A stretch of 64,000 nucleotides of DNA, from NCBI RefSeq assembly GCF_025264645.1, contig NZ_CP073696.1:3410001-3474000 (forward strand). Direction: 5' to 3'. The notes beneath the pieces were generated by a model, which was not told the origin of the DNA, did no database searches, and worked only from the letters and a program-made list of their open reading frames with translations. Source of the DNA: Edaphobacter lichenicola. Lineage in GTDB: Bacteria; Acidobacteriota; Terriglobia; Terriglobales; Acidobacteriaceae. The position numbers and the translations under genes were made by a program. This document shows positions 4,809 to 25,698 of the stretch, one piece after another. Positions within the stretch are counted from its first letter, which is position 1. Every line of letters starts with the position of its first letter.

Positions 4809-4854
4809 ATGGCATGGAAGAGGTCATCGGTTCGATCCCGATCAGGTCCACCAA
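4809..4854 (+). repeat. attL: 46-bp direct repeat, 3' part of tRNA-Ala(GGC)
   Basis: Identical to 25163-25208. From U33 on it reads as a perfect tRNA 3' portion: anticodon GGC, A37, stem GGAAG, variable loop AGGTC, T arm ATCGG/CCGAT around TTCGATC, acceptor strand CAGGTCC with U70 (which pairs with G3 in alanine tRNAs), discriminator A and encoded CCA. Typical attachment core of tyrosine-integrase islands. Upstream bases do not complete a proper tRNA 5' half, so this copy is a fragment. Confidence 0.9.
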
Positions 4855-4891
4855 TAAACCCAACAACTTAGCGGATTCGCAGAAAAAACGC

Positions 4892-6124: not shown

Positions 6125-6358
6125 TCATTCCGACCCCGATGGCTGGTCTAATTTTACCGCTTCACACTCCAGCCATCGAGAGAGTTCCGAGAGGCGAAAT
6201 CGCCACATCTGGCGCACTCCCCGACCTACGGGATGCGCCGGCAGGTCGCCTCTTCGGGCCAGTTTGAGCACAGTCTTCCGTGACAGTGCCAGGAAGTCCG
6301 CGGCACGTTCAGGAGCGACAAACGGTTCGTGCGTCGTTGGTTTATTCATGAGTTCCAT
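6125..6358 (-). CDS. Excisionase-like small HTH DNA-binding protein
   Basis: 77 residues with a MerR/excisionase-type winged helix: ERAADFLALSRKTVLKLARRGDLPAHPVG, then RFRLSELSRWLEC. Such proteins set integration versus excision direction or act as small repressors. GAGGTGAGAA precedes the ATG. It lies 12 bp upstream of the integrase in the same direction, the usual xis-int arrangement, which is the main support for the role. Confidence 0.82.
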   Translation of the reverse strand: MELMNKPTTHEPFVAPERAADFLALSRKTVLKLARRGDLPAHPVGRGVRQMWRFRLSELSRWLECEAVKLDQPSGSE

Positions 6359-6423: not shown

Positions 6424-6939
6424 TCATTCCTCACGTCTGCCCTCGAACGGTGTAGGCTTGAAGAGCTTCGTTCGACTGAGCTGGGCGTCCTTGGCCCGGT
6501 TCTCCTCCGCGAGTCGATCCAATCTCGCCATTTCCTCTTCTCTTCGGATTTGCCATTCTGGTTTGGTATTTTGCCCGATACCCTGATTCGCTACAGGCGC
6601 GGCGGCGGGCTGTGATTGCCTTTCTACGGTCGGCGCAGGGAGGTTCTTGGTCGTTGTCCTGTTCGGGGCAGGCTTACCTGTGAGCCGATTCGCCATCGCA
6701 ACGAACTGCCGGTATGTTCCCTGATAGCCCACATCCCGCAAGATCCGCCAAACCGCTTTCCAGGGCAGACCGACTTCTGAAATGGCGTTCAACTCAACAG
6801 CAAATCTTTTCAGCCCCCTGGCCTTAAGCGGAAGGAGATCCTTTCTAGCTCGGATCCGTTCGGCCAACGCTTTCACCTCGGTCACCTCGATATTTATTGA
6901 CGAGTACATTTCAATACGAGTTTGCCATCGGATTTTCAT
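6424..6939 (-). CDS. TraK-like/accessory mobile-element protein, function unknown
   Basis: 171 residues. The N-terminal about 85 contain a small helical domain (RFAVELNAISEVGLPWKAVWRILRDVGYQGTYRQFVAMANRL), which resembles the HTH-like domain of TraK/MobC-like accessory proteins of plasmids and islands. The remainder is low-complexity (Pro/Ala/Gln linker) and a charged helix (EWQIRREEEMARLDRLAEENR). The start is uncertain: Met1 or Met11, neither with a strong ribosome binding site. Its 5' region is duplicated in decayed form at 10185-10340, on the far side of the retron/HNH genes. The TraK relation is a resemblance, not a firm call. Confidence 0.55.
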   Translation of the reverse strand: MKIRWQTRIEMYSSINIEVTEVKALAERIRARKDLLPLKARGLKRFAVELNAISEVGLPWKAVWRILRDVGYQGTYRQFVAMANRLTGKPAPNRTTTKNLPAPTVERQSQPAAAPVANQGIGQNTKPEWQIRREEEMARLDRLAEENRAKDAQLSRTKLFKPTPFEGRREE

Positions 6940-7074
6940 TCATGCAAGGCGGCGGTCCATTTATATCTTTGACCGCCCTCACCTTCCCTCACTTTTCAGG
7001 CCAAGGCAGCATTCGGCAGCACTTGCCCTTATCGTCAAGAGCGGTGAAGGTGAATGAGACTCTGTCTGCTAAGC
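6718..7074. repeat. Copy 1 of an imperfect direct duplication flanking the retron/HNH cargo
   Basis: Aligns with 10185-10435 over most of its length (shared blocks such as TGATAGCCCACATCC, CAAGGCAGCATTCGGCAGCA and GGTGAATGAGACT). This copy holds the 5' part of the intact TraK-like gene plus a 27-codon 3' fragment (6989-7072, minus) of the small gene that is complete at 10351-10578. About 106 bp present here, including the TraK-like start, are missing from copy 2. Confidence 0.8.
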
Positions 7075-7233: not shown

Positions 7234-8988
7234 TCAGGGAGTGGCGTGTGGGTTGACTTGCGAAGCGACATGCGCAGCGATTACGTCAGTGATGGTTTTT
7301 AAGATCGGATTAAAACCGTTGAAATCCGTTGTACCAGCATTCTTCTTGATGACCTGCTCGGCGAATATGGCCTTCCCGTAATGAATGCTCTGATCGAAAG
7401 GCTTGTGCGGCATGAATGTCTTGCCACCGACAACTGTGCCAAGAGTTTGCTGCGAGAAGAAATCCTCGATTACAGATTCGGTCTTACCAGCCGTCAGCGG
7501 AGTTGGCAGCACATAGAGATTGTGCGTTACATGAATATAAGGGGCGGTCCAGGAAGACTGCCGCTTTGTTATGTTGTTGATCACACCGGTCAAGTCTTTC
7601 TTGCCGTCGTCGTTGTCAACAAGGATGATAACGGGCTGCAACAGACCGGGTGCCTTGAACTTCTTAAGATCGCTGCTATAGCGGAGAATGAAATTCTTCA
7701 AGTCGCCAGTCCCGCCGTGTAGCTCGAGAATGCGCCCTGTGCTTGTTTCCGGGTACTTGAATATGCGAACTTTCAGAGACACGGCGTTCTTAGGAGAGAT
7801 CGATGCCAAGCCAGGGTAGCCTGCAGCAAGGTGCTTTATTGCCTCCGATATATATATATTGTCGGTCTTGCCTTCGCAGATGATCACTGGAGTCTGCGCG
7901 CTGTAGAAATATTCAAAAATCAGAAAGCGCCGATATTGGCTTTCCTTCGTCTGGATGCTTGTTTTTGGACTGCTTCCCGCGATGTTGGATTGCTGGCTGA
8001 TGCGTTTGTTGTACAGATCGACCCGGTCGATATGCCCAAGCATTCCGTGAAGCTGTGCCATCGTGCCAGGGCTTTTCTGCGTAGTACCACCCGAAGGTGC
8101 TGGACCGACGCTTTCAAGGTAGAAGGCGCCGGTGGTAAAAAGCCTATGAACCATCGCGCGGACCGCCCGGCGATATTCGCTTTTGATATTCACTTTCTTG
8201 TTTACGACCAGTCCCGTCACGTCCTGACGCGAGTTCCGGTACTGCATGCGCGTCTTCGCGGCGTTGATCGTAAAGCCGGAGTTCGCTACGAGTTTACTGA
8301 TTTCATTCGCGGCGCTCCAACTATGATTCACACCGATATTCCCGACCGCGATTGACGATGGAAATGTCGGAAGATTAGTTGAAAATGTTAGGTCGTCAGC
8401 GTACCTGGTATAAGTGCAGCCGGCTTTCTGTGCAAGTTGAAGGAGCCTGATGTCCAGAATATGGGCGATGAGGTTCGAGAGGACCGGCGAGCAGGGGCTT
8501 CCTTGCGGGAGCGCGTTGTCATTGCAAGCAATCTGCGCGAGGACGGTGGCCACCTTCGGGTGGAGGGAGAAATGCTTGTTAACGATGAAAAATCCCCGAA
8601 CTCGCCCAAAGTTGATACTGCCAAAGAAGTCGGCAAGATCAAGATTGAAAACCCAACGTCTGCCTCGGTGTCGACAAGCGTTGCTCACTATGGATCGGTC
8701 GCGCTTGAATCCGTGCGCGATTTGATCCTTCCAGCCATTCGTCGCGTTCAGTTCAGCAGTACAGTCCTGAAGGAGATCTGAAAGATTTCTTTGCAGCAAT
8801 TTGAGGTCATCCGTGGGTGCCTGGATCACTCTTGTGCCGCCGGAGGCCTTCTGCAGCACAAAAGTGCGGTATTTAGCGGCCGGAATCTTGCGGTAAAGAA
8901 TATAGGCTAGCGCTTTTGGCTTGAAATTCAGCAAGGCCGCTACATCATGCAGGGTGCTCGCGTTCTTGAGAGATTGCAGCCTGGACAT
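7234..8988 (-). CDS. Retron reverse transcriptase fused to a Toprim domain
   Basis: 584 residues. RT domain (about 35-290): retron-specific NAxxH as N103-A-C-R-H107, catalytic Asp in NLDLADFF (117-120), ALPQGSPCSPVLSN (159-172), catalytic YADD at 196-199 and the retron VTG motif at 257-259. The C-terminal part (about 365-584) is a Toprim domain: VIICEGKTD (Glu372) and VIILVDNDD (Asp458-461). Known counterpart: the Ec67 (Eco2) retron RT, of nearly the same length and also RT-Toprim, an anti-phage system. The RT would make msDNA from the RNA encoded just upstream; the Toprim half is the presumed effector nuclease. The ATG lies 15 nt after the a2 repeat of that RNA. Confidence 0.92.
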   Translation of the reverse strand: MSRLQSLKNASTLHDVAALLNFKPKALAYILYRKIPAAKYRTFVLQKASGGTRVIQAPTDDLKLLQRNLSDLLQDCTAELNATNGWKDQIAHGFKRDRSIVSNACRHRGRRWVFNLDLADFFGSINFGRVRGFFIVNKHFSLHPKVATVLAQIACNDNALPQGSPCSPVLSNLIAHILDIRLLQLAQKAGCTYTRYADDLTFSTNLPTFPSSIAVGNIGVNHSWSAANEISKLVANSGFTINAAKTRMQYRNSRQDVTGLVVNKKVNIKSEYRRAVRAMVHRLFTTGAFYLESVGPAPSGGTTQKSPGTMAQLHGMLGHIDRVDLYNKRISQQSNIAGSSPKTSIQTKESQYRRFLIFEYFYSAQTPVIICEGKTDNIYISEAIKHLAAGYPGLASISPKNAVSLKVRIFKYPETSTGRILELHGGTGDLKNFILRYSSDLKKFKAPGLLQPVIILVDNDDGKKDLTGVINNITKRQSSWTAPYIHVTHNLYVLPTPLTAGKTESVIEDFFSQQTLGTVVGGKTFMPHKPFDQSIHYGKAIFAEQVIKKNAGTTDFNGFNPILKTITDVIAAHVASQVNPHATP

Positions 8989-10115: not shown

Positions 10116-10350
10116 TGTGCCCGTCGGATCACAGTTTACATTTCATAGAAGCGAACATCGGGAAGTAATTCTTTGTGGGATAGATCCCTGATAGCCCACA
10201 TCCTGGAATACCCCCCAAACCACTATCCAGAGCAGACCGACATCTGCGATGGTCTTCAATTCAACCGCAAACCTCTTCGGCCCCCTGGGCCTTGAGCGGA
10301 AGGAGCTCCTTTTTTGCTAGGAGCCGTTCGACCAGTGCCCTCACCTTCCC
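10116..10350 (-). pseudogene. Decayed 5' copy of the TraK-like gene
   Basis: 10185-10340 is clearly related to the 5' half of the gene at 6424-6939, but carries many substitutions and lacks about 106 bp including the start codon, so it cannot express that protein. The 70 bp before it, upstream of the HNH gene, hold no recognisable element. Confidence 0.65.
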
Positions 10351-10435
10351 TCACTTTGCAGCACAAGGCAGCATTCGGCAGCACTTTCCCGCATCGTCAA
10401 GAGCGGTGAGGGTGAATGAGACTTTGTCTGCCAAG
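10185..10435. repeat. Copy 2 of the duplication flanking the retron/HNH cargo
   Basis: Partner of 6718-7074, in the same orientation. It combines a broken TraK-like 5' region with the intact 3' end of the small gene at 10351-10578. The stretch encoding LADKVSFTLTALDDAGKCC keeps its reading frame in both copies, suggesting it was coding when duplicated. Confidence 0.78.
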
Positions 10436-12096: not shown

Positions 12097-13254
12097 TTAC
12101 AGCAGACCCATGGAAAATGCGTTCTTCAGGACCGACGGCATGAGAGCCTTGTATTCTGTCAATACTTCGCCCTGCAACTTCTCGGCTTCCCGCAAAGTGG
12201 CCATCACTGCACGCAGACGATATTGAACTGTGCGCGACGGAAGCGGCAGCCTATATGCAAGAAAATCTGTAGGATTCAACCTGCGCCTCCGCACGTTTGT
12301 ACCAGTGCTAGAACCGGACAACTCCGGCCATACCGTCGGAGAACGAAAATGCACATCAAGAACTTCCGGTAAGACTTTTTCCTCAATGACTTCAAACACA
12401 GGAAACTCTGTTGACACAACACATCCGTCGCAGGTCTGGGGTACCACCCCTAGAGCTCCTTCCCACGCCATGAGCTTTGGATACACAAAATCGCCGCTTC
12501 TGATGCGCGTCAACTTCGAGTAGGCAAATTCGTTTCCAGACTTCGCATTGCCGCGAAACACTCCTCTTCCAAAGCAATAGACGCCAGCAAATTGATAGGT
12601 TTGCTCGGGCTCCACGTCCACGTCAGGGGACCTGAGTTTCACGAGATCGCGCATAGGGACCAATTGCGCATCCTTATCGTTCCTAATAATTGATCGGCAC
12701 AGTTCACTGGCTTCACGGAAGCTCTCTTCCCGAAGCTGCTGCGCTTCGGATACCAGGCCGGATAACGATTCGATTCCCTCAACAAGCCGGCCTTGCTCCT
12801 TCAATGAAGGAAGCGGAACCTCCAGCGCGAGAAAATTCTTCTCCTTTAGTCGGTTTCTGCTGGTCGGGGTGCCGCCTGTACTCAGCCCCAAAGCTTGATT
12901 CCACCATGATTCCTGCGAGAAGTAGTAGAACAAGTATTTTGGCAAGACAGTTGAGGAGTTCACGGAAAAACAGGGGAATTCGTTCGAGACATAACAGCCG
13001 TGTGCAGCCTCATCTGCTAACGCAAACGAACCTTTCCAAGCGAAAAGCCTGTTATATACAAGGTCTCCCTTCTCCACACGAAAGAGAGTATTCGCCTGAA
13101 TCTGGCTCCCCTTCTTTTGCTCTTTGATGTACAAGCCCTTTGCATACCATCTGGCACCCAAAATGTCGTAGGTCTGAGTTGGATTCACCGCCTCAGGGCG
13201 GCTGATAATCGTCAATATCTCCCCAAGTTGCACTGGAGTTTTGCGATCACTCAT
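12097..13254 (-). CDS. hsdS: Type I restriction enzyme specificity subunit HsdS
   Basis: 385 residues organised as two similar half-molecules, each a target-recognition domain followed by a long spacer helix. Half one has ARWYAKGLYIKEQKKGSQIQ... YVSNEFPCF... LEVPLPSLKEQGRLVEGIESL. Half two has AGVYCFGRGVFRGNAKSG... VSTEFPVFEV... YRLPLPSRTVQYRLRAVMATL. It sets the DNA sequence recognised by the methylase and nuclease. The start overlaps the hsdM stop by 4 bp (ATGA), the typical translational coupling. Its recognition sequence cannot be read from the protein. Confidence 0.92.
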   Translation of the reverse strand: MSDRKTPVQLGEILTIISRPEAVNPTQTYDILGARWYAKGLYIKEQKKGSQIQANTLFRVEKGDLVYNRLFAWKGSFALADEAAHGCYVSNEFPCFSVNSSTVLPKYLFYYFSQESWWNQALGLSTGGTPTSRNRLKEKNFLALEVPLPSLKEQGRLVEGIESLSGLVSEAQQLREESFREASELCRSIIRNDKDAQLVPMRDLVKLRSPDVDVEPEQTYQFAGVYCFGRGVFRGNAKSGNEFAYSKLTRIRSGDFVYPKLMAWEGALGVVPQTCDGCVVSTEFPVFEVIEEKVLPEVLDVHFRSPTVWPELSGSSTGTNVRRRRLNPTDFLAYRLPLPSRTVQYRLRAVMATLREAEKLQGEVLTEYKALMPSVLKNAFSMGLL

Positions 13255-14801
13255 ACGGCACCTTTCTGCAACAACTGCTGAACGGCGACCATGATTTCAG
13301 CAATCCGGCGCTCTTTGCTGAGAATGCTTTGCACCACTACATCCGGGGTCAGGTGTTCAATATCCTCTTTCGAATTTGGATTCTTTACATCAAGATTGCA
13401 TCCGTTTTCGAGCAATTTGGCCGCTGAGGTCTTCCACGCGCAGAGATTTTCTTTGCGATCATTCCACCAATCCAGACAAGCCGAGAATTCCTCAAACTGC
13501 ATCGGGGCGGTCTTGGTATAGTTTTTTCTCCCGGCTGGTAGAGGCTGCTCGTAATACCAAACGTCGTGCGTCGGACCCGAACGGTCAAAGAAAAGAAGAT
13601 TTGCGGGTATGCCCGTGTAGGGAGCGAATACTCCATTTGGAAGCCGCACTATCGTGTGGAGGTTGAATTCCTTCAGCAATTCTTCCTTGATACGTGCACC
13701 TATTCCATCTCCAAAGAGCACTCCGTTTGGCACGACCATCCCGCACCTGCCGCCCTTGTTCCCCCGCACCGGACGACGGAGTTTCCGCATGATCAGCTGC
13801 AAGAAAAGCAGAGCTGTATCGGCGGTCTGTTTGTCTTCTGGAAAATTTGAAAGGATGCCCCGCTCTTCCTCTCCCCCAAAAGGAGGATTCGTCACGATCA
13901 CGTCCACACGGTCCTTATCGCCGATCTCCCTCAGAGGAAAACGCAAAGCATTGCCGGGGTCTATCTCGGGATACTCCAATCCGTGGAGTAGGAGGTTCAT
14001 TTCGCAAAGGAGATAGGGGAGTGACTTCGCTTCGATCCCGTGCAATGTACCGTGCTGAAGAAGATCGTAGTCTTGGGCACGCTTTGCCTGCGCCTTCAGG
14101 TGATCGAAAGCTTCGACCAGGAAGCCGCCCGTACCGGCCGCCGGGTCTAGAACCGTCTCACCCAATTGCGGATTTACGACCGAGACAATGAATTTAACGA
14201 CGGATCGTGGAGTATAGAACTCACCCGAATCTCCCGCCGCGTCTCGCATCTCGCGAAGCATCGTTTCGTACATATGGCCGAGCGTGTGAATCTCATCCTT
14301 TGAAGTGAAGTGGATGCCATTCACCTTGTTGATCACATCTCGTAACAAGTACCCCGTGAGCATTCGATTCACGGTTCCTTGGAAGACACGAGAGATGACG
14401 TCCCGGCGATCACCGTTGGTGCTCTCAAGTGAACGAAGGTAGGCAAATAGACCGGGACCGCGTGTACCGTCCGGGCGCACAGCTTCATCCTGATTGATAA
14501 AGGACAGTAATTCTGGTCCCGTTATTCCCTCGGCCTTGGCTGCCCAGTCACGCCAACGATACGGCGGTTCGATGCTTGGCTTATAGGGTTTTCTCGCGAG
14601 CTTTGTTTCGGCTTCCCTGACTTGCTCCATGTCATCCAGGAACTTGAGAAACATGATCCAGGTGAGCATCGGCAGGCGGTCAAGATCGCCGTTGAGACCC
14701 TTATCCTTGCGCATGATTGCCCGGCACGACTTGACGATGTTGCCAAGTTGTTGAGCCGTCGATTGCTTTACTTCTTTTTTCGTTCCTTTGGTTCCTGCCA
14801 T
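13251..14801 (-). CDS. hsdM: Type I restriction-modification DNA methyltransferase HsdM
   Basis: 516 residues. The N-terminal HsdM_N helical domain (LGNIVKSCRAIMRKDKGLNGDLDRLPMLTWIMFLKFLDDME) is followed by the N6-adenine methyltransferase domain. SAM-binding motif: LDPAAGTGGFLVEAF (preceded by GEFYTPRSVVKFIV). Catalytic motif IV: VIVTNPPFGGEEE. It methylates host sites and, with HsdR and HsdS, forms the restriction complex. Middle gene of an hsdR-hsdM-hsdS operon, 9 bp after hsdR. Confidence 0.95.
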   Translation of the reverse strand: MAGTKGTKKEVKQSTAQQLGNIVKSCRAIMRKDKGLNGDLDRLPMLTWIMFLKFLDDMEQVREAETKLARKPYKPSIEPPYRWRDWAAKAEGITGPELLSFINQDEAVRPDGTRGPGLFAYLRSLESTNGDRRDVISRVFQGTVNRMLTGYLLRDVINKVNGIHFTSKDEIHTLGHMYETMLREMRDAAGDSGEFYTPRSVVKFIVSVVNPQLGETVLDPAAGTGGFLVEAFDHLKAQAKRAQDYDLLQHGTLHGIEAKSLPYLLCEMNLLLHGLEYPEIDPGNALRFPLREIGDKDRVDVIVTNPPFGGEEERGILSNFPEDKQTADTALLFLQLIMRKLRRPVRGNKGGRCGMVVPNGVLFGDGIGARIKEELLKEFNLHTIVRLPNGVFAPYTGIPANLLFFDRSGPTHDVWYYEQPLPAGRKNYTKTAPMQFEEFSACLDWWNDRKENLCAWKTSAAKLLENGCNLDVKNPNSKEDIEHLTPDVVVQSILSKERRIAEIMVAVQQLLQKGAV

Positions 14802-14810
14802 GAATTTGCC

Positions 14811-17180
14811 TTATGCTGCATAGAGCAATTGTTGAAGTTCGCCGACGGCGGCTTGAAGTTGATCGGGACCACCAAAAAGTTGAGCGATTTCAATTACATT
14901 CCCGTGCTCCGACAAAGGCGAAACCTTAAGGATGTCTGGTATCTGGAATTGTGCTGTCCCAAACTCGACATACTTGTCTAGCAGTTCGTTAAGCACCTGA
15001 CGCGCGCCGTTGGTGAACCGATTGAAAAATGCCTGGCCGTCAAGACGGGCGGCCTCAGCCCGCTCACGTCTGCTCCGGATCGGCGCACTGTAGGCCACAT
15101 TGCAGAGAAGGTCGAAAGGGTCCGCGTCTGGTTGCTTGGCAACCTCGGCCAATTCCTCAAAGGAGATGCCGCGCTGCTCAAGGGCGGCAATAATCGCGGC
15201 GCGCTCATCGGGGGCACTCCACCTGGCACGCAGATCGGCGGCAGAAGGATACATGCTGCGGACACTATCAGCGGTGTATTCTGTGAATCGTCGAACTTCC
15301 AGCCGTCTACCGTCTTCGTCGAGCTCGTAAACGAGATGAGCGGCAATTTCCACCACCACGCCGCCATCAACGTGATATTTGCGCGGCGGCCCCTGCTCAT
15401 CATCAAAGACAGGTCCGCGTGCGGCCTCCTGCTCCTGTTCTGCTGGATCTTCGGCCTGTGGTTCATCCACGACGACCGGCTCTCCTATGGCCTCGCCTTC
15501 CGCGTTCATCTGTTCGTCAACAGTCTGCGCTGGATCACCGTCAAAGTCCCTATCGGCAAACAAGCGTGTGGCGCTGCCGGTGTAATCGAGGATATTGAAA
15601 TACAACTTGCCGTAGTCGTCCCGCACGCGAGTACCACGGCCAATGATCTGCTTGAATTCCGACATTGAGTTGATATTGCGCACGAGCACGACATTCTTGC
15701 AGGTGGGCGCATTGACGCCTGTCGTAAGCATCTGTGATGTCGTAAGAATTGTCGGTGTCTGGGTTTCCAGTTCCATGAATCGGCCCAAGTGAGCCCGCCC
15801 CGTGTCGCCTTCATCGGAGACGACGCGGGCGACATAGTCGGGAAACTGGCGGACCAAATCTGCATTGCAGTTGTTGAGCGCCCGTCGCATCTCTTCGGCG
15901 TGTTCCTGGTCTGCACAGAAAACGATGGTCTTTGCAAAGCGATCAGTTTTCTTCAGAAAATCCGACAGGTTGCGAGCGATGGCTTCCGTGCGTGCTTTCA
16001 GGGCGATCACGCGATCAAAATCCGATGTGCCGTACAAGGCATCCGGGATTTCCCGGCCATAGCGGTCAAGCTCGCCGGGAGTCGGACGCCAGCCAGCGGC
16101 ATCTACGGTCGATACGATACGATGCACTCGGTATGGCGCGAGGAATCCGTCGTCAATACCTTGCCGGAGACTGTAGGTATAGAGCGGATTCTGAAAATAG
16201 CGATACGTGTCGCGGTTGTCTTCACGTAGCGGTGTCGCGGTCATGCCGATCTGACTTGCGGGCTCAAAATATTCGAGAATCTCCCGCCAATTGCTTTCGT
16301 CGCGTGCGCTCCCCCGGTGGCATTCGTCTACGATGATCAGGTCAAAGAAATCGCGGGCATAGTCGCGGTATAACCCTGGACGGCGCTGGTCTTTCGCAAT
16401 CGCCTGATAAATGGCAAAGTACATCTCGCGGCTTTTGACCGCCTCCCCTTCAATCTTGTGCCGGGCTTCGCCGAACGGAGCGAAGGTTTTGTCCTTTGGG
16501 TCATCAACGAGCACATTGCGGTCGGCGAGGTAAAGAATTCTAGGACGGCGATGCTCGCCGGTACGATTCCATAAGGAGTTCGTCAGCTTCCAGCAGATCT
16601 GAAAGGCGACCTCTGTCTTCCCGGTCCCGGTCGCAAGCGTCAGCAGCGATCGTTTCTTGCCCTGGAGAATGGACTGCACCGCACGATTGATCGCAATCTC
16701 CTGGTAGTAGCGCGACGGCCTTCCTGCCAAGTGATAGAACGGCGTGAGCAGTCGGTTGCCGACTTCCTCGGTGATGTTCTCCGCTGTTCTGAGTCGTGCC
16801 CAAAGTTCTGATGCCGTGGGGAACGTCTCCAGTTCAGTATCGATGCCGGTCAGGAAGTCATGTTCAAGGATGCTATGGCCGTTCGTCGCATAGGCGAACT
16901 TCAGTCCCAGAATCTGGGCATATTCCTTGGCTTGCTGCAATCCGTCGCCGGAGGTCTTATAGGCCGCTTTCGCTTCCACGACGGCAATGGGGAAGTCCCG
17001 GCGATACCGCAACAGATAGTCGGCGCGCTTCTGAGGACGGCGGATCGCTCGGTTGCCAACGAGCACAATCCGGCCATCTGTAAAGCTCTTTTGCTCGCTG
17101 ATCTGGTTGTCTTCCCATCCGGCGCTGTAGAGCTTTGGCAGGACGTAAGTACGGCAGGTATCGGCTTCGTTCAGGGGCAT
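14811..17180 (-). CDS. hsdR: Type I restriction endonuclease subunit HsdR
   Basis: 789 residues, EcoEI-like size. The N-terminal nuclease domain has a PD-(D/E)XK core: Asp54 in RADYLLRYR and Glu69-x-Lys71 in VVEAK. The SF2 translocase follows: Walker A LATGTGKTE (182-190), DEAD-type box DECHRG, motif III TATPLRED, motif VI IGRGTRVRDDYG. A C-terminal domain contacts the methylase core. It cleaves unmodified incoming DNA after ATP-driven translocation. First gene of the hsdRMS operon; all motifs are intact, so the system appears functional. Confidence 0.95.
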   Translation of the reverse strand: MPLNEADTCRTYVLPKLYSAGWEDNQISEQKSFTDGRIVLVGNRAIRRPQKRADYLLRYRRDFPIAVVEAKAAYKTSGDGLQQAKEYAQILGLKFAYATNGHSILEHDFLTGIDTELETFPTASELWARLRTAENITEEVGNRLLTPFYHLAGRPSRYYQEIAINRAVQSILQGKKRSLLTLATGTGKTEVAFQICWKLTNSLWNRTGEHRRPRILYLADRNVLVDDPKDKTFAPFGEARHKIEGEAVKSREMYFAIYQAIAKDQRRPGLYRDYARDFFDLIIVDECHRGSARDESNWREILEYFEPASQIGMTATPLREDNRDTYRYFQNPLYTYSLRQGIDDGFLAPYRVHRIVSTVDAAGWRPTPGELDRYGREIPDALYGTSDFDRVIALKARTEAIARNLSDFLKKTDRFAKTIVFCADQEHAEEMRRALNNCNADLVRQFPDYVARVVSDEGDTGRAHLGRFMELETQTPTILTTSQMLTTGVNAPTCKNVVLVRNINSMSEFKQIIGRGTRVRDDYGKLYFNILDYTGSATRLFADRDFDGDPAQTVDEQMNAEGEAIGEPVVVDEPQAEDPAEQEQEAARGPVFDDEQGPPRKYHVDGGVVVEIAAHLVYELDEDGRRLEVRRFTEYTADSVRSMYPSAADLRARWSAPDERAAIIAALEQRGISFEELAEVAKQPDADPFDLLCNVAYSAPIRSRRERAEAARLDGQAFFNRFTNGARQVLNELLDKYVEFGTAQFQIPDILKVSPLSEHGNVIEIAQLFGGPDQLQAAVGELQQLLYAA

Positions 17181-17429: not shown

Positions 17430-18344
17430 CTATTGACCCTTACTGGCTCTCTCCTGGGTTGGAGATGGTCTCAGATCCGAGATGATTGTCATCAAAGTTT
17501 CCAGGGGGCCGGGATGGTGCCGATCCAGGTAGTATTTAATTTTTTCCTCTTTAAATAAGCGGTCGAGATAGGCGCATGTCACCGTTAGCGTGAGGACGTC
17601 AGTGCCGTAGGTCTCTTCGATTGCCTTTAGGTTCTGAATTATGCCGTCGGTGTCTTCGCCCAGGAGCGTGTCCGCTGCGTCGGAATTGGCCTTGTTTTGG
17701 CGTGCAATTGAAGCCTGTGTCAGAAGCGCCGGAGGACTGATGGCGAGCCTGGTCTTTGCAAACGATACAGAATAGTCATTGCGGAGGACCATTAGCTCCA
17801 CTGTCGCGATCTGTCCAATCGCTTTCATCTTTCGCAGTATTGGGAACAGTTCCAGGCTTAGCTTTTTGTCACGCAACATCTCTACGACCTCTGGGCAAAT
17901 TCCTTCGAGCATTTGCGCCCGCCTCCGAATTGCCGCAACATCCACGTTCAGGGTAGCGGCGATACGCTCCTCGGCGACTCCGCTCTTGAGAGCTTCCATC
18001 AGCATGAAGTGTTGGGCTACAGGTGGGATGTGGTTAACTCGCTTGTTGTACGTGTAGCTCTCATCGTCCGTGGAAAGGATGCAGTTAACTTCCTCCGTCC
18101 CCAATATCTTGAGGGCCTCAAATCTGAGATGTCCATCCAGTAGCAGAAAGCCTTTACCTTCCTGCGGAAATACCACGAGCGGCTCGATTAGGCCGATTTC
18201 GCGGACGGAGGATAGGATTTGTTTAAAGATAGAGGAACGGAGCGCCTCTGCAGTTGCATTCCGCTGTGGAACGATCGAGCTCAGCGGCAGAGTTAGGATG
18301 TTGTTCTGAAAAGCAGAACGCAAGTTGGCGGCGGCACGTTTCAT
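17430..18344 (-). CDS. ParB-like protein with RepB C-terminal domain (second of pair)
   Basis: 304 residues. ParB N-terminal domain: LTLPLSSIVPQRNATAEALRSSIFKQILSSVREIGLIEPLVVFP, with the nucleotide-binding patch LLLDGHLRFEALKILG. An HTH-containing middle follows (RIAATLNVDVAAIRRRAQML), then a RepB-family helical tail ending in LDRLFKEEKIKYYLDRHHPG. Family members bind DNA sites in plasmid partition, but no ParA is encoded nearby. Its ATG overlaps the stop of the preceding RepB-like frame once that gene's frameshift is corrected (ATGA). Together with the serine recombinase it forms a compact three-gene operon of unknown function. Confidence 0.83.
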   Translation of the reverse strand: MKRAAANLRSAFQNNILTLPLSSIVPQRNATAEALRSSIFKQILSSVREIGLIEPLVVFPQEGKGFLLLDGHLRFEALKILGTEEVNCILSTDDESYTYNKRVNHIPPVAQHFMLMEALKSGVAEERIAATLNVDVAAIRRRAQMLEGICPEVVEMLRDKKLSLELFPILRKMKAIGQIATVELMVLRNDYSVSFAKTRLAISPPALLTQASIARQNKANSDAADTLLGEDTDGIIQNLKAIEETYGTDVLTLTVTCAYLDRLFKEEKIKYYLDRHHPGPLETLMTIISDLRPSPTQERASKGQ

Positions 18345-19209
18345 TGTTGAAGCCTCCCCGCGAGCTCGGCAGGAACGGACTGGACGCCCTCGGCCTTTAA
18401 CAAAGTTCGAAAGTGCTCATCTCCAAATAAGATTCGCGCGGCGGAAGTCAACAAAATCAGCCGATCTCTTGTTCGGTTAGCTTTCACAACCAAAGCGGTC
18501 TGCTCACGAATCTTCTGCTTGTATTCCTGGACCAGGGATTCGCCGGTGAGCTTGCGATGCGTCGGCGGGCCTTTCCTAGAAGCCTTTGTTTTTCCAACCT
18601 CTGGCTTATAACGCGGCGAGCGGCAGAGATGCGCGCTCCGCGCAGGTCACCTTTCTCGTAAGCCTCAGATAGTGCCCTGGAAATCTCATGATTGTTGCCA
18701 GTGGCGATTTCTACTGCAACGCTGAGCGGTATACGACCGGCCTCGACAGCCAAGACAAGAAATTCTTCCCCTTTATCGATGAGGTTGCAGATTCCATATA
18801 GGTACGCACGATCCAGGCCGAGCTTGCGAGCGATCTGCTCGCTTGAGTGCCCCCTCTCACGCAGAACCCGAACCTCGAACAAAATGGCATGGGTTGATGC
18901 TGGCCTTCTCGCTATGTTTTCCACCAGGCTCATCAATTGCCGATCCTGCTCAGGTGCTTCGATGACAATTGCTGGAATGAACATTTCACCAAGCTCGACA
19001 AAAGCTTCCATACGCCCTTGTCCGCATACCAGATCGTAGCGTTTTCCGTCGGAAGTTGATTGAGGTCTTTGCGCCACGGTGATAGGCCGTTTCAGACCTA
19101 CAGTTGCGATGCTTTGAACGACCAATTGCCACTTGAGCCGATTACGTGTTCGCGGATTTATGATTCGGATCTCTGATATTGGAATTGATTCAACTTGTTG
19201 CTCGTTCAC
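18341..19209 (-). pseudogene. ParB-like protein with RepB C-terminal domain (first of pair), frameshifted
   Basis: The GTG start at 19209 overlaps the recombinase stop (GTGA). The ParB domain is intact: SIPISEIRIINPRTRNR, RYDLVCGQGRMEAFVELG, HTH HSSEQIARKLGLDRAYLYGI, AYEKGDLRGARISAARRV. The open frame then leaves the family pattern and stops at 18484. A -1 shift at about 18588-18620, near an A5 run, restores a typical RepB tail (RKLTGESLVQEYKQKIREQT, FGDEHFRTLLKAEGVQS). That frame stops exactly at the ATGA overlap with the next gene. Either one base was lost or ribosomes shift here; the sequence alone cannot decide. Confidence 0.78.
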
Positions 19210-20759
19210 GCTAGATCCTCCACCGAAATTCTTTTTGCGAGGTTGATAAACAGACTGAGGGTATCGAATCGATACAGGTCGAGTGAAACTCCATTGTCTG
19301 CCGCAAGACTGAGCCGCTTCCAGAGGAGATCAATGCTCGGAAGCAGGTAGTAATCCTTAACGGTCTGATTCCCTGGATTCAATCGGGCGGCAATGGTAAT
19401 GTCCGGCATTAGGCCGGCATCGAACCTGAGTCGCCACCGTGGGGACTGGGCTTTTGTCTCCTGACATCTTGAAAGGATGAGAGACGCCGTGTATTCGGAA
19501 TTGATGGTCAGCAGGTCGGAACGGTCGTCTATGTCTACTTGCGCACCGGTCGCTCGCAGATCCGCAACAATGATCTCGACCAGATCTTGATGCCGCCGAC
19601 GCAACTCCCGATTTGCTTCAATAAAGCTGGAATCTCGCCGGTCGCTCCAACCAATCAGCTCGTAAGCTCTATGCAGACCGCCGAATCGCGACATGTACAT
19701 TGAACTTGAAGGCATATCTTCTGCTTCATCGATCAGTATCCCCGACAGTTTTCCGCACCTCTCCAACAGAGATCGCAATCGCGCGAGCAAGTCCTCGTCT
19801 GACAAGTGAATATGTCGAGCATCGATAATCCGTCGAGCTTGCAAAAAGACATCTGTGGGAACGATTGCCTTGAATGCTTCACTACGAGAGATCCACATTT
19901 CAGGCGGATTGATCAGGCGTTTCATCTTCAGCTTGTAAGAACGGCGGTTGTATACATTGGCTCCGACGTATTTAGGATTGGTGAGAATCTGATGAATCGT
20001 CGCTCTCGTCCAAGGTCTCCCCATGTCAGATAGCACACCCTTGCTGTTGAGATAAAAGGCAAGATTTTTTTCTGACTGCGCATCTTCGGTGAACCTCGAG
20101 AACAGGTCCCTCACTACCAGAACCTCGGCATCCGGCCCAGGCACCAGGACAACACGGTCCGTCTGTAAGCTCTTCCGTTCGCCTCGCGTTAATAATCCCT
20201 TTTCTCTGCCGTCACGATCAATGAGTTGGCGTCGGAGACCGTAACCAGCAGGGCCACCTTGCCTAAATCCAAGTTCGATAAGACGGCATTGCCCCGCGAA
20301 GACTTTAACCGAGAGCTCCCGACTGTACTCTCCTGCCATCGTCCGCTTGAGAGTCTTCATCAGTGCAGACGCCATGCTCCCATCATTGGCGAACTGCTCG
20401 CCGCAATAGTGAACCCGTATGCCGGCACGCTTCAAAACATATTCGTGATACGCGCTTTCGTCCGCGTCCTGGAACCGCCCCCAGCGGCTCACATCGTAGA
20501 CCAAGACGTCCGTGAAGTTGGTATTCCCTTGCTCTACATCCCTCAGAAGCTGACTTAGCCCATCCCGGCCCGCTAGGTTGAGGCCGCTTCGCCCATGGTC
20601 ATCGTATGTGGCGACGACATCCATATTGTGAGTGATGGCATATTTCGTGATGGTGTCGGACTGGTTTTGTGGAGAATACTGTTGATGTTCTGTTGACATT
20701 CGGACGTACTGAGCCGCACGACTGGTGGGTGAAGGCGAATTGTCACTTTTCGGCGGCAT
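19206..20759 (-). CDS. Large serine recombinase
   Basis: 517 residues. N-terminal resolvase domain: AAQYVRMSTEHQQYSPQNQ with the nucleophile Ser in RMST, SGLNLAGRDGLSQLLRDV, LVYDVSRWGRFQDADES. The recombinase domain follows: YGLRRQLIDRDG, and RATIHQILTNPKYVGANVYNR (a zinc-region precursor pattern). The C-terminal about 200 residues lack the usual zinc ribbon Cys pairs and are poorly recognised. It heads an operon with two RepB-like genes, overlapping the first by 4 bp. The linkage suggests the ParB-like proteins assist or control recombination; this is inference. Its own attachment sites are not obvious. Confidence 0.9.
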   Translation of the reverse strand: MPPKSDNSPSPTSRAAQYVRMSTEHQQYSPQNQSDTITKYAITHNMDVVATYDDHGRSGLNLAGRDGLSQLLRDVEQGNTNFTDVLVYDVSRWGRFQDADESAYHEYVLKRAGIRVHYCGEQFANDGSMASALMKTLKRTMAGEYSRELSVKVFAGQCRLIELGFRQGGPAGYGLRRQLIDRDGREKGLLTRGERKSLQTDRVVLVPGPDAEVLVVRDLFSRFTEDAQSEKNLAFYLNSKGVLSDMGRPWTRATIHQILTNPKYVGANVYNRRSYKLKMKRLINPPEMWISRSEAFKAIVPTDVFLQARRIIDARHIHLSDEDLLARLRSLLERCGKLSGILIDEAEDMPSSSMYMSRFGGLHRAYELIGWSDRRDSSFIEANRELRRRHQDLVEIIVADLRATGAQVDIDDRSDLLTINSEYTASLILSRCQETKAQSPRWRLRFDAGLMPDITIAARLNPGNQTVKDYYLLPSIDLLWKRLSLAADNGVSLDLYRFDTLSLFINLAKRISVEDLA

Positions 20760-21247
20760 CGGGTGATACGAAAGACCATTAACCTCTCCGACCCTATGCT
20801 TCGTTCATGAATATCAGCTACCGATTTCTGTCTGCGCGAGACAAACAATGGGAATAAGCCAGATCCGTAGCAAGAATTCACAGAGCACTCACTATCATGG
20901 ACCCCGTACCCTCCGCTCCGGTGTCCGTCAAGGCTCTCCGCTGCGCTTCGACCGCTAGCGCGGCGCTTCGCGACCTTGACCGACATCTCCGCTCCGGGTG
21001 ATGGCTAGATATGAGAAGCATGCGCTTCTCTATTCTCAAGAGAATCGGACCTTCAGAGTGATTCGGAGGGCGGTGTAACACTTTGAAAGGTTTTGGGAAG
21101 GGAGGCCCAGCGGCAAATAGATAGCTTCGGGTGGCGGCAAGGTTGGGCTCCTTTACGCTAGAATTGTGTCGTCTTTTGAAAGTTTCATTTCAATACGGCA
21201 GAACGAACCGTCCTCGTTGAGTTCTTGATCGGCTTGATCGGACGGTT
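20760..21247. promoter_or_regulatory. Divergent regulatory region with several inverted repeats
   Basis: 488 bp between the recombinase operon (minus) and the RHH gene (plus). It contains TGTCCGTCAAGG (20922-20933) with CCTTGACCGACA (20974-20985), a 12-bp inverted repeat with one mismatch. Two adjacent palindromes are GAGAAGC-ATGC-GCTTCTC (21013-21030) and ATTCTC-AA-GAGAAT (21032-21045), sharing GAGAA half sites. These are plausible operators or recombination/ParB-type sites. No coding frame is supported. Confidence 0.5.
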
Positions 21248-21709
21248 ATGTTAGCGGAAAAAGTCCACTTGGGCAGGAAGTCATACGCCTTGGCAACACA
21301 GAAAACAGGTCGAAACGTGAACCGCGAAGGACAGCGCTGGACGGAAGACCGCGCAGGGATGACCCTGCGCTTACCCATCGACCTCCGGGAAGCGGTCACC
21401 GAAGAGGCGCGGGTCGCCGGCGATCTTTCTAGGGTGGTTCTTTTCGCCCTCCGCAATGTCGACCGGAAGGACGTGACAATCACGCAGACTCGCAAAGCCG
21501 GACTTCCGTTATCCAAACCTCAGCTTTTGCATGTTGGAGCCGAGGCACGATCCGTGATCCGAGCTTGGGCCAAGGATGAGGGGGTGAGCGTGAACGCTAT
21601 TATGGTTAGCGTTCTCGAAGAGTTTTTCCGGCGTCTGAGGAAAAGCAAGGTACTCCGCGAGGAGCTGAGACTGGAACTGAGGGCCAGACGCGGCTTTCTG
21701 CCGAGCTAG
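21248..21709 (+). CDS. Protein with two ribbon-helix-helix-like segments
   Basis: 153 residues. RAGMTLRLPIDLREAVTEEARVAGDLSRVVLFALRNV looks like one ribbon-helix-helix (RHH) unit. A second follows at about 95-140 (LLHVGAEARSVIRAWAKDEGVSVNAIMVSVLEEFFRRL). The basic N-terminus and C-terminus fit DNA binding. RHH proteins usually repress their own or neighbouring promoters. The palindromes at 21013-21045, some 200 bp upstream, are candidate targets. No toxin-like partner is adjacent. Function is unassigned beyond likely DNA binding. Confidence 0.55.
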   Translation: MLAEKVHLGRKSYALATQKTGRNVNREGQRWTEDRAGMTLRLPIDLREAVTEEARVAGDLSRVVLFALRNVDRKDVTITQTRKAGLPLSKPQLLHVGAEARSVIRAWAKDEGVSVNAIMVSVLEEFFRRLRKSKVLREELRLELRARRGFLPS

Positions 21710-22037
21710 AAAATCGATTGATGTCCAATCGATTCGCCAAGAACGTTTTCCCCTGCAGAAGCGGCCGCATTCTCAATGTTTAGCTGGAAGCTTCCCTGGG
21801 CGTCGCGGAACAAGCCGCTATCCTCAGTATGAGTAGCGGAAGACGTCGGCACTAGCGGCGCCTGGAGCGAGGGAAAAGACTTCTTCCCTTCAATCACCCG
21901 AGGAAATGCCATTTTCGCAGACTCGGGGCTGGTGGATACCAGAACAGCTTTTTCTTTGATTTACGAAAAGGTGGCGTCTGGACTCTCGGCGCAAAGACTG
22001 TTGAACTTTTTGCCGTACCATTGTGTTTGGGATTGGC
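21710..22037. other. Intergenic stretch before the ABC-3C operon
   Basis: 328 bp. A minus-strand frame of 68 codons exists at 21706-21912 but has no ribosome binding site and no recognisable sequence, so I do not call it. The promoter of the ABC-3C operon should lie in the right-hand part. Confidence 0.35.
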
Positions 22038-22970
22038 ATGACGGAAAAACGGCGTTCTATGGACCCAGTACAGCAGAGTTTCTATGTCCTTCATTTCAAA
22101 GCAGCTTTCCATGAGAAGAAGGGCACAGCTTTCCAAGATTGGTTCGTGCAGATTGCGGGTCATGCCTATGGTCCTGACTTTGATGAGGTGCGCCCATACG
22201 GAAAACAAGGGGATCTGAAATGCGATGGTAGGCTTCTGAGCGCTAAAACTGTCTTTCAGAGCTATGCCCCCTACCTTATGAAGGACACGGAGCTCATTAC
22301 CAAGATTGACGAGGACTTCCAGGGCGCGGTAGAGAACTGGAAAGGTTGGATTGAAAGTTGGATATTCGTTCACAACGATGCGCGCGGACTTCCGCCAGCG
22401 GTGACCATCCAGCTCGACGGATTGAGGAAGCAAAATCCAAAAGTCCACATTGAGGTCTGGTCAGAACCGGAATTGCTGAAATTAGCGCAGCGGATGGATC
22501 TGACTTCGCATCAACTGATGTTCGGGTATGCGCCCTCTCTCGCGGTTGTGGATCGATTGGTTTTGAACGACCTCGTTCCGATTATTGAGGCGCTTTCGCG
22601 TGCGAAACCAAGTGTTATGAATCCGCCGTTGACTCCGCCGAGTTTGCTGAAGCTGGAAAGAAACGCTCTGTCCACGGACGCCGCCGTTTTGCTACAGATG
22701 GGGCGACGCAAGAGTGATTTGGTTCAGACCTTTTTCCTGCGAGGCCCGCGCCCAGATTTCGGGGAACAAATCGCTCAAGCCTTTCGAGAGCGCTACACAA
22801 TTTTGAAGGGCTTAGGTCTACCAGCGGATAGTATTTTCAAGAGCTTTCAAGACTACGCGGGCGGTAACGGTGACCCGCAGCGCCAGGGCGCAGCGCTGGC
22901 TGTTATCACATACTTTTTTGACGCCTGTGACATATTTGAAGATCCAGGCCCAATGGAAAGCGGATCATGA
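22038..22970 (+). CDS. ABC-3C system effector-like component
   Basis: About 310 residues from the ATG at 22038 (TTGGGATT upstream; GTG at 22023 and ATG at 22059 are alternatives). The N-terminal part reads FHEKKGTAFQDWFVQIAGHAYGPDFDEVRPYGKQGDLKCDGRLLSAKTVFQSYAP, a PD-(D/E)XK-like restriction-nuclease pattern (Asp in GDLKCDG, then a lysine-containing strand) often seen in the first gene of ABC-three-component loci. The C-terminal part is a helical interaction domain (ILKGLGLPADSIFKSF). It overlaps the next gene by 4 bp. The known framework: an SMC-like ATPase senses a trigger and licenses the effector. Confidence 0.68.
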   Translation: MTEKRRSMDPVQQSFYVLHFKAAFHEKKGTAFQDWFVQIAGHAYGPDFDEVRPYGKQGDLKCDGRLLSAKTVFQSYAPYLMKDTELITKIDEDFQGAVENWKGWIESWIFVHNDARGLPPAVTIQLDGLRKQNPKVHIEVWSEPELLKLAQRMDLTSHQLMFGYAPSLAVVDRLVLNDLVPIIEALSRAKPSVMNPPLTPPSLLKLERNALSTDAAVLLQMGRRKSDLVQTFFLRGPRPDFGEQIAQAFRERYTILKGLGLPADSIFKSFQDYAGGNGDPQRQGAALAVITYFFDACDIFEDPGPMESGS

Positions 22971-23212
22971 TTCTGCCTTCAAAACACGTCCAGCCGCAAC
23001 GCGCTCTCGTCGGAGTCGGAGCAGAAATCATCAGTGCTCTCACTACGCCGATGACAATGTCTCGAATGTGGGACGAGATTCGTGGACGCCGGACACTCGC
23101 TGTTCCAAACGCTCCTTTGGATTATGAGTGGTTTGTTCTCGCTTTGGATTTTCTATATTCGATAGGCGCGATCGACTACGAACGTGGAACATTGCGGAGG
23201 GTTGCGAAATGA
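22967..23212 (+). CDS. ABC-3C system middle component
   Basis: 81 residues, a small winged-helix-like protein: LVGVGAEIISALTTPMTMSRMWDEIRGRR, then LDYEWFVLALDFLYSIGAIDYERGTLRRV. This size and sequence style match the small middle component (MC6-like) that links effector and ATPase in ABC-three-component systems. It overlaps both neighbours by 4 bp (ATGA at 22967-22970 and 23209-23212), which indicates tight translational coupling. Confidence 0.72.
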   Translation: MILPSKHVQPQRALVGVGAEIISALTTPMTMSRMWDEIRGRRTLAVPNAPLDYEWFVLALDFLYSIGAIDYERGTLRRVAK

Positions 23213-24957
23213 TCCGACATCTCGGAAGCGATCTTCCCTCTTTCAAGACGCTGTCATTCCGCCCAGGTCTGAACATCCTGCTTGCGGACAAAAGCGAAGG
23301 TGCAACTGATCGGCAATCGCGCAATGGGGCGGGCAAATCAAGTTTGGTCGAACTGATCCATTTTCTGTTGGGCGCAGAGGTGCGCCCGGAAAGCCTGTTT
23401 CGGAGTTCAAAACTCGTCGATCACTCCTTCGACATTCTTTTTGATGTAAAGGACGCGCCCATTTCAGCCAGCAGATCGGGTAAACGGCCGTCGAGAATCG
23501 TCGTGGATGGAAACTTTTCTGGCTGGCCGATCACGCCGGTTGAGAAATCTAGCGGGTTTACGGAACTCACAAACGAAGCCTGGAAAGAGAATCTCGGCGC
23601 GTTATGGTTCGGCCTGCCTGTTGAGTCAGAGGAGAGTCATCCGTCATTTCGCTCTCTCTTTTCCTATTTTGCGCGGCGACAAGGGAGCGGGGGATTCATT
23701 CAACCCATTCAACACTCGGGCCAACAGCAAACTTGGGAGCAACAATTTTCTGTGGCCTACCTCCTGGGTTTGGACTGGACTCTTCCGCTACGCTTTCATG
23801 AGCTTCACGTCCGGGAGAAGGTAACAAAGGAGTTGCGTAAAGCAGCCAAATCGGGCGAACTTGGGCAGTATTTCGGACGTGCCGCCGACTTACGGACTCG
23901 ATTGACGGTGGTAGAAGCGCGCGCACAGCGCCTACGTGAGCAACTTGACTCTTTTCAAGTTGTGCCGCAGTACAAAGAGTTGGAGCGTGAGGCTAACGAC
24001 ATTACTCATGCCATCGATTCAAGGAATATCGAAAATGTATTGGATGGGGATCTTGTGCGCCAATTGCGATCCTCGCTTGAAGATGAACGGACACCAGACC
24101 TGAAGGATGTGACGAATGTGTACGCTGAGGTCGGGGTGATTATGCCGGATCTCATCAAGCGGCGTTTCGATGAGGTCGAGAACTTTCATCGCACAATTCT
24201 GGAAAATCGGCGCTCACATCTCGCGTCGGAAATTAGTTCTGCGGAAACGCGTATCGTGGAACGTGACCGATTGAATCTGGAACAGGATCGTAGACGCCAA
24301 CAAATTATGGGCACTTTGCGGTCTGGAGGTGCACTAGAGCACTACACCAATTTGCGCGAGGAGCTGGGTCGCCTGGAAGCCGAAGTGGAAGGTGTGAGGC
24401 AGCGACTCCAAACCGCCGAGACCATCGAAAGCACAAAAACAGAGATGGACATCGAACGGGCAAATTTGCTGAAAGCGTTGAGGGATGATATTCATGAGCG
24501 TGCCGCCACGGTGCGCGAAGCCATTCTGACCTTCGAGCAACTGTCAGAATCGTTATACGAACGCGCCGGAAGTTTGACGATAGCAGAAGCGGCGTCTGGT
24601 CCTTCCTTCGACGTTCATATTGATGGTCAACGGAGCAAGGGGATCACCAATATGCAGATTTTCTGTTTCGACATGACTTTGATGGAGATTTCTCATAAGC
24701 GCGGCCGGGGACCTGGATTTCTCGTTCACGACAGTCATCTATTTGACGGAGTTGATGAACGACAAGTGGCAAAGGCGCTCCAACTGGGGGCTGAGCAAGC
24801 TCAATCAGCGGGGTTCCAGTACATCGTTACGATGAATTCGGACGCATTGCCGAGAGATGGGTTCAAAGGTGATTTCAACATACGTGATTACGTGATGGAC
24901 ACGGTGCTCACCGATGCGACTGAGACGGGTGGATTATTCGGATTGCGCTTTGAGTAG
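23209..24957 (+). CDS. SMC/Rad50-like ATPase of the ABC-3C system (DUF2326 type)
   Basis: 582 residues from the ATG at 23209, which overlaps the preceding stop; the frame extends upstream but only as a shadow. N-terminal ATPase half: LSFRPGLNILLADKSEGATDRQSRNGAGKSSLVELIHFLL, with Walker A NGAGKSS. A long coiled coil follows (about 230-440, rich in Glu/Arg heptads). The C-terminal DUF2326 half has FDMTLMEISHKRGRGPGFLVHDSHLFDGVDERQVAKAL, where the Walker B is VHDSH. It ends with the GLFGLRFE tail. It likely forms the sensing engine of the three-gene defence operon. Confidence 0.85.
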   Translation: MIRHLGSDLPSFKTLSFRPGLNILLADKSEGATDRQSRNGAGKSSLVELIHFLLGAEVRPESLFRSSKLVDHSFDILFDVKDAPISASRSGKRPSRIVVDGNFSGWPITPVEKSSGFTELTNEAWKENLGALWFGLPVESEESHPSFRSLFSYFARRQGSGGFIQPIQHSGQQQTWEQQFSVAYLLGLDWTLPLRFHELHVREKVTKELRKAAKSGELGQYFGRAADLRTRLTVVEARAQRLREQLDSFQVVPQYKELEREANDITHAIDSRNIENVLDGDLVRQLRSSLEDERTPDLKDVTNVYAEVGVIMPDLIKRRFDEVENFHRTILENRRSHLASEISSAETRIVERDRLNLEQDRRRQQIMGTLRSGGALEHYTNLREELGRLEAEVEGVRQRLQTAETIESTKTEMDIERANLLKALRDDIHERAATVREAILTFEQLSESLYERAGSLTIAEAASGPSFDVHIDGQRSKGITNMQIFCFDMTLMEISHKRGRGPGFLVHDSHLFDGVDERQVAKALQLGAEQAQSAGFQYIVTMNSDALPRDGFKGDFNIRDYVMDTVLTDATETGGLFGLRFE

Positions 24958-25162: not shown

Positions 25163-25208
25163 ATGGCATGGAAGAGGTCATCGGTTCGATCCCGATCAGG
25201 TCCACCAA
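25163..25208 (+). repeat. attR: second copy of the 46-bp tRNA-Ala(GGC) core
   Basis: Identical to 4809-4854. The bases upstream (island end) do not form a tRNA 5' half, as expected for the distal att site. Confidence 0.9.
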
Positions 25209-25698
25209 AATATCCATTACAAACCAATAAGTTACGAGAAGTGAGCAAATTCCTTCTCGGCGCGTTTGGTGTCATTTGGTGTCAAATTTATAAATACCTT
25301 TCTCCGCCTTGCGATGTTCTTTTGCGGGCGATTGTCGCAACTCCAAGTTAATGGAATTGGACTGCACCCTCTCGGGGATCTCCCGCATGAGTTTCACCAA
25401 TGGCGTCGGGCGTGGTTCGTTTCAAAATCCAAACGCGCGGAACGGTGTTTGCGTTAGCCTCCGGTCGTAGCACCACTGGTTCCGCGTTGAGTTTGCCGTC
25501 GATGAACTTGTTGACGCGAGTTTTATCCCGCTGTCCCCTTAGGCACAACAGTTCACCGTTCTTTGCGCTCTTCCAGCACACGAGATTGTGCAAGTGAGGA
25601 CTCGTGACAGAAAAATGGTGCACTGCATGCACAGCCAAAGTCAGCGTCGTGGTATCCGCTCGTAGCCACGGTGAGGCTGGCTTTGTGCGAAAAAGACG
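25209..25698. other. Decayed or non-coding flank right of the island
   Basis: TTTGGTGTCA occurs twice in tandem at 25265-25284, 57 bp after the att core, resembling the TGTCA-containing tandem left of attL. A minus-strand frame at 25348-25710 (120 codons) has no recognised domain or ribosome binding site; I consider it weak. The region may be the remnant of another element. Confidence 0.4.

Follow-up and report, generated by a model that had tools for sequence, protein, structure and literature searches.

A large serine recombinase and two ParB-type proteins form an obligate, widespread three-gene unit, one copy of which lies in a 64,000-nucleotide stretch of Edaphobacter lichenicola DNA (contig NZ_CP073696.1, positions 3,410,001 to 3,474,000; henceforth the window). 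The trio is probably a type of gene-moving module that has not been described before. The explanation that we consider rather probable is that it constitutes an autonomous site-specific recombination module which spreads horizontally, with the two ParB proteins as accessory factors of the recombinase. The role of the ParB proteins, the movement of the module by its recombinase and the identity of the attachment sites are what we infer from the comparisons described below.

All three genes of the window trio are encoded on the reverse strand. The recombinase (19206–20759, 517 residues) is followed by ParB1 (18341–19209) and ParB2 (17430–18344, 304 residues, intact). As an earlier note on this DNA had reported, the genes overlap by four nucleotides each: recombinase and ParB1 have GTGA at 19206–19209 in common, and ParB2 shares ATGA at 18341–18344 with ParB1 once the frame of the latter is restored. 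ParB1 is frameshifted, with open parts at 18484–19209 and in the frame that ends at 18341. Compared with the 92% identical block of a related locus (L007), one C is missing from a run of C near 18567–18571. In L007 and in a second related locus, L008, ParB1 is whole and comprises 289 residues. The frameshift in the window may be genuine, or it may stem from an error in the assembly. Since ParB1 is frameshifted, this particular copy of the trio is probably inactive.

We assigned the first protein to the large serine recombinases because it contains the catalytic Ser/Arg motifs of the Resolvase domain together with a Recombinase domain, both of which are recognized by Pfam. The catalytic motifs YVRMST and YDVSRWGRF are intact, and MST, YDxSRWGRF and EYSR are kept among 25 relatives. 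The sequence profile and the AlphaFold model (mean pLDDT 77, pTM 0.54) match the serine integrases SPbeta SprA, Bxb1 and PhiC31. Many large serine recombinases, albeit not all, carry a zinc-ribbon domain at the C-terminus. The earlier note had seen no clear zinc ribbon in this protein, and alignment with relatives leads to the same view: no zinc-ribbon cysteines are conserved in its C-terminal part. The architecture of the recombinase argues for a function in site-specific integration or excision.

The two other proteins are indeed ParB-like with RepB tails. Pfam detects RepB (PF07506) and ParB_N (PF02195) in both, with the ParB_N match of ParB2 just under the cut-off, and hhalign relates the two proteins with a probability of 97%. 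With its profile, ParB1 matches Spo0J, Noc and KorB; with its predicted model, which is usable at domain level only (pLDDT 81, pTM 0.44), it matches Noc and CTP/CDP-bound ParB. The ParB2 profile matches Noc. A ParB N-terminal domain and a helix-turn-helix are thus supported by sequence and model for ParB1, and by sequence alone for ParB2. At the positions of the ParB nucleotide motifs, GxGRxxA and EN.ARR are kept in ParB1, and DGHLR and TYNKR in ParB2. These residues are conserved, yet they differ from the classical motifs, so that CTP binding by the two proteins is best regarded as a lead.

We scanned 84,980 species genomes, obtained at least 594 pattern matches and took the best 80 of these as loci. 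Contig ends cut seven of the 80, which were therefore left out of the trio count; the remaining 73 loci all contain the full trio in the same order. The gene order is therefore conserved, and the concern raised in the earlier note that the three families might rarely be adjacent elsewhere proved unfounded. Four nucleotides are common to the ParB1 start and the recombinase stop in 56 of the 73 loci, and one nucleotide in 15; between ParB1 and ParB2, a four-nucleotide overlap is present in 55. The same note had remarked on the absence of a ParA gene, and had held that an adjacent ParA in most homologous loci would speak against a new system. No open reading frame with a Walker motif was found within about 8 kb of the trio in any of the 80 loci; the same kind of test detected RepA on pAtC58. 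The distance matrices calculated for recombinase, ParB1 and ParB2 are closely correlated (Mantel r 0.95–0.97; permutation maximum 0.25). Strict linkage, overlapping translation and the absence of ParA together argue for a joint function.

The distribution of the trio is patchy. Among 198 Rhodobacteraceae genomes, the recombinase occurs in 25 and ParB1 in 23. Every ParB1 match in this family adjoins a recombinase, except for one fragment in a genome with a contig-broken trio, and where a recombinase lacks ParB1, the recombinase itself is a fragment. Within the phylum of the window, 6 of 297 genomes have a match. Relatives at 54–60% identity come from Acidobacteria, Proteobacteria and Verrucomicrobia, as judged from the best 80 of at least 594 matches. 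This patchy spread, combined with relatives in several phyla, points to horizontal movement of the trio family. On IMG/VR viral contigs the trio is nearly always complete wherever there is room for it, down to about 43% recombinase identity, and it often sits at contig ends. In a recombinase subclade at this identity (L274–L285), at least one tyrosine integrase gene lies directly upstream of the trio on the same strand. The trio is nearly absent from phage isolates: among 50,697 records, a single one has a match across 80% of the query. A 55% identical recombinase on a 13.5-kb plasmid record of Lactiplantibacillus plantarum (NZ_CP110863.1, 5544–7067), far outside the usual hosts, is possibly a contamination.

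Copies of the trio that resemble each other are found in unrelated surroundings, with about 3.6–5 kb in common and then abrupt divergence. The window and L008, for example, share a core block of about 3.6 kb at 17447–21047 (86% identity), which consists of the trio and about 290 bp upstream, and they diverge on either side of it. Such abrupt ends argue for a moving unit. An inverted repeat, GAGAAGC-N4-GCTTCTC, is located upstream of the recombinase at 21013–21030 and is conserved in L007 and L008; it may be an operator or a recombination site. The earlier note had suggested looking for inverted repeats shared near the recombinase. This idea holds for these three loci; across clades, the search for parS and other sites revealed no common inverted repeat or palindrome upstream of the trio. 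A divergent gene for a 153-residue protein without a Pfam family (21248–21709, forward strand) adjoins the trio in the window and in L007. In L008 it is 3.8 kb away, with other cargo in between.

The note had also proposed that comparing the boundaries of loci with and without the trio would uncover recombination sites. This comparison delivered the abrupt block ends, and direct repeats of 21 nucleotides on Agrobacterium plasmids; it yielded neither a matching pair of empty and filled sites nor an att sequence common to all clades. Sequences bearing TCGAACC were considered as a universal site and dismissed as unconvincing (85 on the plus versus 65 on the minus strand). General targeting of tRNA genes was discarded as well, since few trio loci have tRNA genes nearby. 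In Rhodobacteraceae, the upstream end of the block is often a TGGCGGAG sequence that resembles the 3′ end of tRNA-Ser; second copies of this type at the far end of the blocks occur in single cases only. In Aquibium (L141 2003 and L142 11641), direct repeats of about 90 bp that end with TGGCGGAGGG occur in two copies 29.6 kb apart. Between them lie the trio and further genes, among which are a ParE-like gene and type I restriction genes.

The block ends are most clearly defined on the pAt plasmids. pAtC58 and pAt1D1460 share 3,904 bp with 97% identity, and unrelated DNA lies on either side. Both ends of this block are imperfect direct repeats of the 21-nucleotide site CGCCTTGA-N2-GGANTCGAACC. 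On related plasmids the same site also borders AbiE, Fic, VapBC and other neighboring genes, and the sequence switches partners within the site. There are about 13 sites per plasmid, compared to none for the reversed control, and nearly all point in one orientation over long arcs. On the pAt plasmids examined (L091, L092, L112–L140) the sites are dispersed and intergenic, bordering toxin–antitoxin and metabolic genes, and they also occur on plasmids that are not known to carry the trio. The site looks like a recombination site; its sole tie to the trio recombinase is that it bounds the trio. One could imagine that the recombinase and the ParB clamps run an integron-like system in which the trio itself is one cassette and the dispersed CGCCTTGA-N2-GGANTCGAACC sites delimit exchangeable toxin–antitoxin, defense and metabolic cassettes. 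We consider this extension unlikely. When pAtC58 was compared with pAt1D1460, 2 of 16 sites coincided with breakpoints (0.11 expected), and both were the ends of the trio itself; no other site fell on a breakpoint. Of two regional searches, one found many homology ends clustering at a 21-nucleotide site, and the other found most homology ends at a gene end instead.

In the window, the trio resides within a 20.4-kb defense island that is flanked on either side by a copy of the tRNA-Ala(GGC) 3′ end, at 4809–4862 and 25163–25216 (both forward strand; 94% identical). The end at the right repeat is also kept in L007 and L008. A tyrosine integrase (4916–6112, reverse strand; Phage_integrase, E = 3.6e-24) lies beside the left repeat, followed by an HTH_17 protein that is excisionase-like by position (6125–6358, reverse strand). 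The defense cargo includes an RT-Toprim I-C reverse transcriptase (7234–8988, reverse strand), the type I restriction–modification genes hsdS, hsdM and hsdR (12097–17180, reverse strand) and the ABC-3C-like pair PDC-M68A and PDC-M68B (DUF2326; 22023–24957, forward strand). An HNH gene and an ATPase (PDC-S01) are also present. The RT-Toprim and HNH genes lie between two pairs of 83–91% direct repeats (6718–7073 and 10185–10435), which gives this segment the look of a separate unit. Three islands stand in tandem behind an intact tRNA-Ala(GGC) gene (genome positions 3318933–3319008), and the island with the trio is the third. Together with this gene they cover positions 3318933–3435216, and each ends with a copy of the 3′ 45 nucleotides of the tRNA gene. 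Islands 1 and 2 share an arm-like sequence before the repeat, which is missing from island 3. A gene for a YhcG/DUF1016 nuclease (3461–4582 of the window) is situated in the neighboring island, just left of the left repeat.

Since a tyrosine integrase and tRNA-Ala repeats already belong to the island, we rejected the trio as the integrase of this island; here it is most likely a nested passenger. The proposal of a mobile module inside the island therefore stands in part: the trio is a conserved unit without ParA that looks mobile, and in the window it is a passenger with a frameshifted ParB1. With a tyrosine integrase close by in the window and on some viral contigs, the trio could depend on others for its carriage. 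It may then be passive cargo in general, moved by the tyrosine integrases of islands or prophages, with a recombinase that acts locally by inverting or resolving island DNA. Besides the window island, this explanation is supported by viral loci, 27 of 80 of which have a tyrosine integrase within reach; in one subclade it lies 350 bp upstream. Among the genome loci (80 loci, 1.14 Mb), however, just 7 contain one, and the common block stops close to the trio and not at the island ends. We regard passive carriage as unlikely, and a module that moves by its own recombinase as the better account.

The trio lives in defense and toxin–antitoxin islands and in some prophage-like elements. At a threshold of 1e-20 and counting families instead of systems, 100 random proteins from trio flanks, mostly of Proteobacteria, gave 69 PADLOC families, and 100 control proteins from arbitrary Rhodobacteraceae stretches (related but not the same genomes) gave 2. 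Dnd, Pbe, AbiE, Dpd, type III restriction and Septu are among the families in the flanks. This enrichment could mean that the trio is itself an antiphage system, with the ParB-like proteins as sensors of foreign DNA and a recombinase that acts on this DNA or flips a defense switch. Integrases are common in defense islands anyway, and neither the recombinase (P0001) nor ParB2 (P0003), the two trio proteins scanned, matched a PADLOC model at 1e-5. The trio also occurs at the ends of prophage-like contigs, where 4 of 20 trio-bearing viral contigs contain a phage portal gene (one Pfam portal family). That serine recombinases can affect phage infection is shown by a 2025 paper on PinQ (PMC12529663), which favors this reading; a defense function nevertheless seems distinctly improbable to us. 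In 21 Rhodobacteraceae genomes, no member of the portal family was found close to the trio. With these counts we also abandoned prophage origin as a rule. Stabilization of replicons, by a multimer resolvase paired with partition proteins that lack ParA, is the least probable of these alternatives, and we give it very little credence. The RepB-type C-terminal domains and 60 plasmid records with a match that covers at least 80% of the recombinase are compatible with it, but many copies reside on large chromosomal contigs, ParA is absent, and a 517-residue protein with Resolvase and Recombinase domains has the architecture of integrases and not of small resolvases.

We return to the recombination module with ParB accessory factors. 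Results that count against it are the lack of a matching pair of empty and filled sites and of an att sequence common to all clades, the nearby tyrosine integrases, and the 21-nucleotide sites, which are also present on plasmids not known to carry the trio and coincide with breakpoints only at the trio ends. ParB-type CTP clamps are known from segregation, nucleoid occlusion and long-range repression. In the trio, the recombinase would perform strand exchange, and both of the diverged ParB/Noc-type proteins would be produced together with it from a single overlapping transcript in the absence of ParA. Their loading probably takes place at a site close to the recombinase gene, from where they could help to choose, pair or license recombination sites and control the direction of the reaction, hence serving the recombinase instead of segregating DNA. 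The action on synapsis, site choice or direction that we surmise is extrapolated from the behavior of ParB clamps in other systems. If this is true, the fixed pairing of two ParB clamps with a serine recombinase across phyla represents a new job for ParB clamps and a new mode of control for serine integrases, the direction control of which is of practical interest. The trio may also account in part for the gathering and exchange of defense genes.

Each of the trio genes already has a name of its own in public annotation. Our search of the full texts of open-access papers returned no description of the trio as such. The nearest described module is that of the Dehalococcoides ssrA islands, where CcrB-like serine recombinase modules contain a ParB-domain protein next to attL (PMC3146451). 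Both systems cluster a serine recombinase with a ParB-domain protein near an island end and are associated with variable cargo. The Dehalococcoides module comprises six genes, among them two serine recombinases (DsiB and DsiA) and one ParB-domain protein, and has one target, ssrA (PMC3146451). In contrast, the trio consists of one recombinase and two RepB-type ParB proteins with nothing else conserved and no common target found. The CcrA/CcrB system of staphylococcal cassette chromosome (SCC) elements is similar in its cassette-like carriage of cargo, and CcrB is the best NCBIfam profile for the trio recombinase; with 55 bits against a cut-off of 900, however, the protein is far from membership in the CcrA/B/C families, and it is accompanied by two ParB proteins instead of a Ccr partner. 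Phage large serine integrases (SPbeta SprA, Bxb1, PhiC31; phrog_95) resemble the recombinase in catalytic and Recombinase domains, sequence and fold, but the trio enzyme lacks the C-terminal zinc ribbon and comes with an obligate ParB pair. Likewise, RepB of RepABC systems, Noc and Spo0J share the ParB_N and RepB domains with the trio proteins, and the ParB1 model matches Noc and ParB. Unlike these relatives, the trio ParB proteins occur without RepA or ParA and without a known parS, and have a serine recombinase as their fixed partner.
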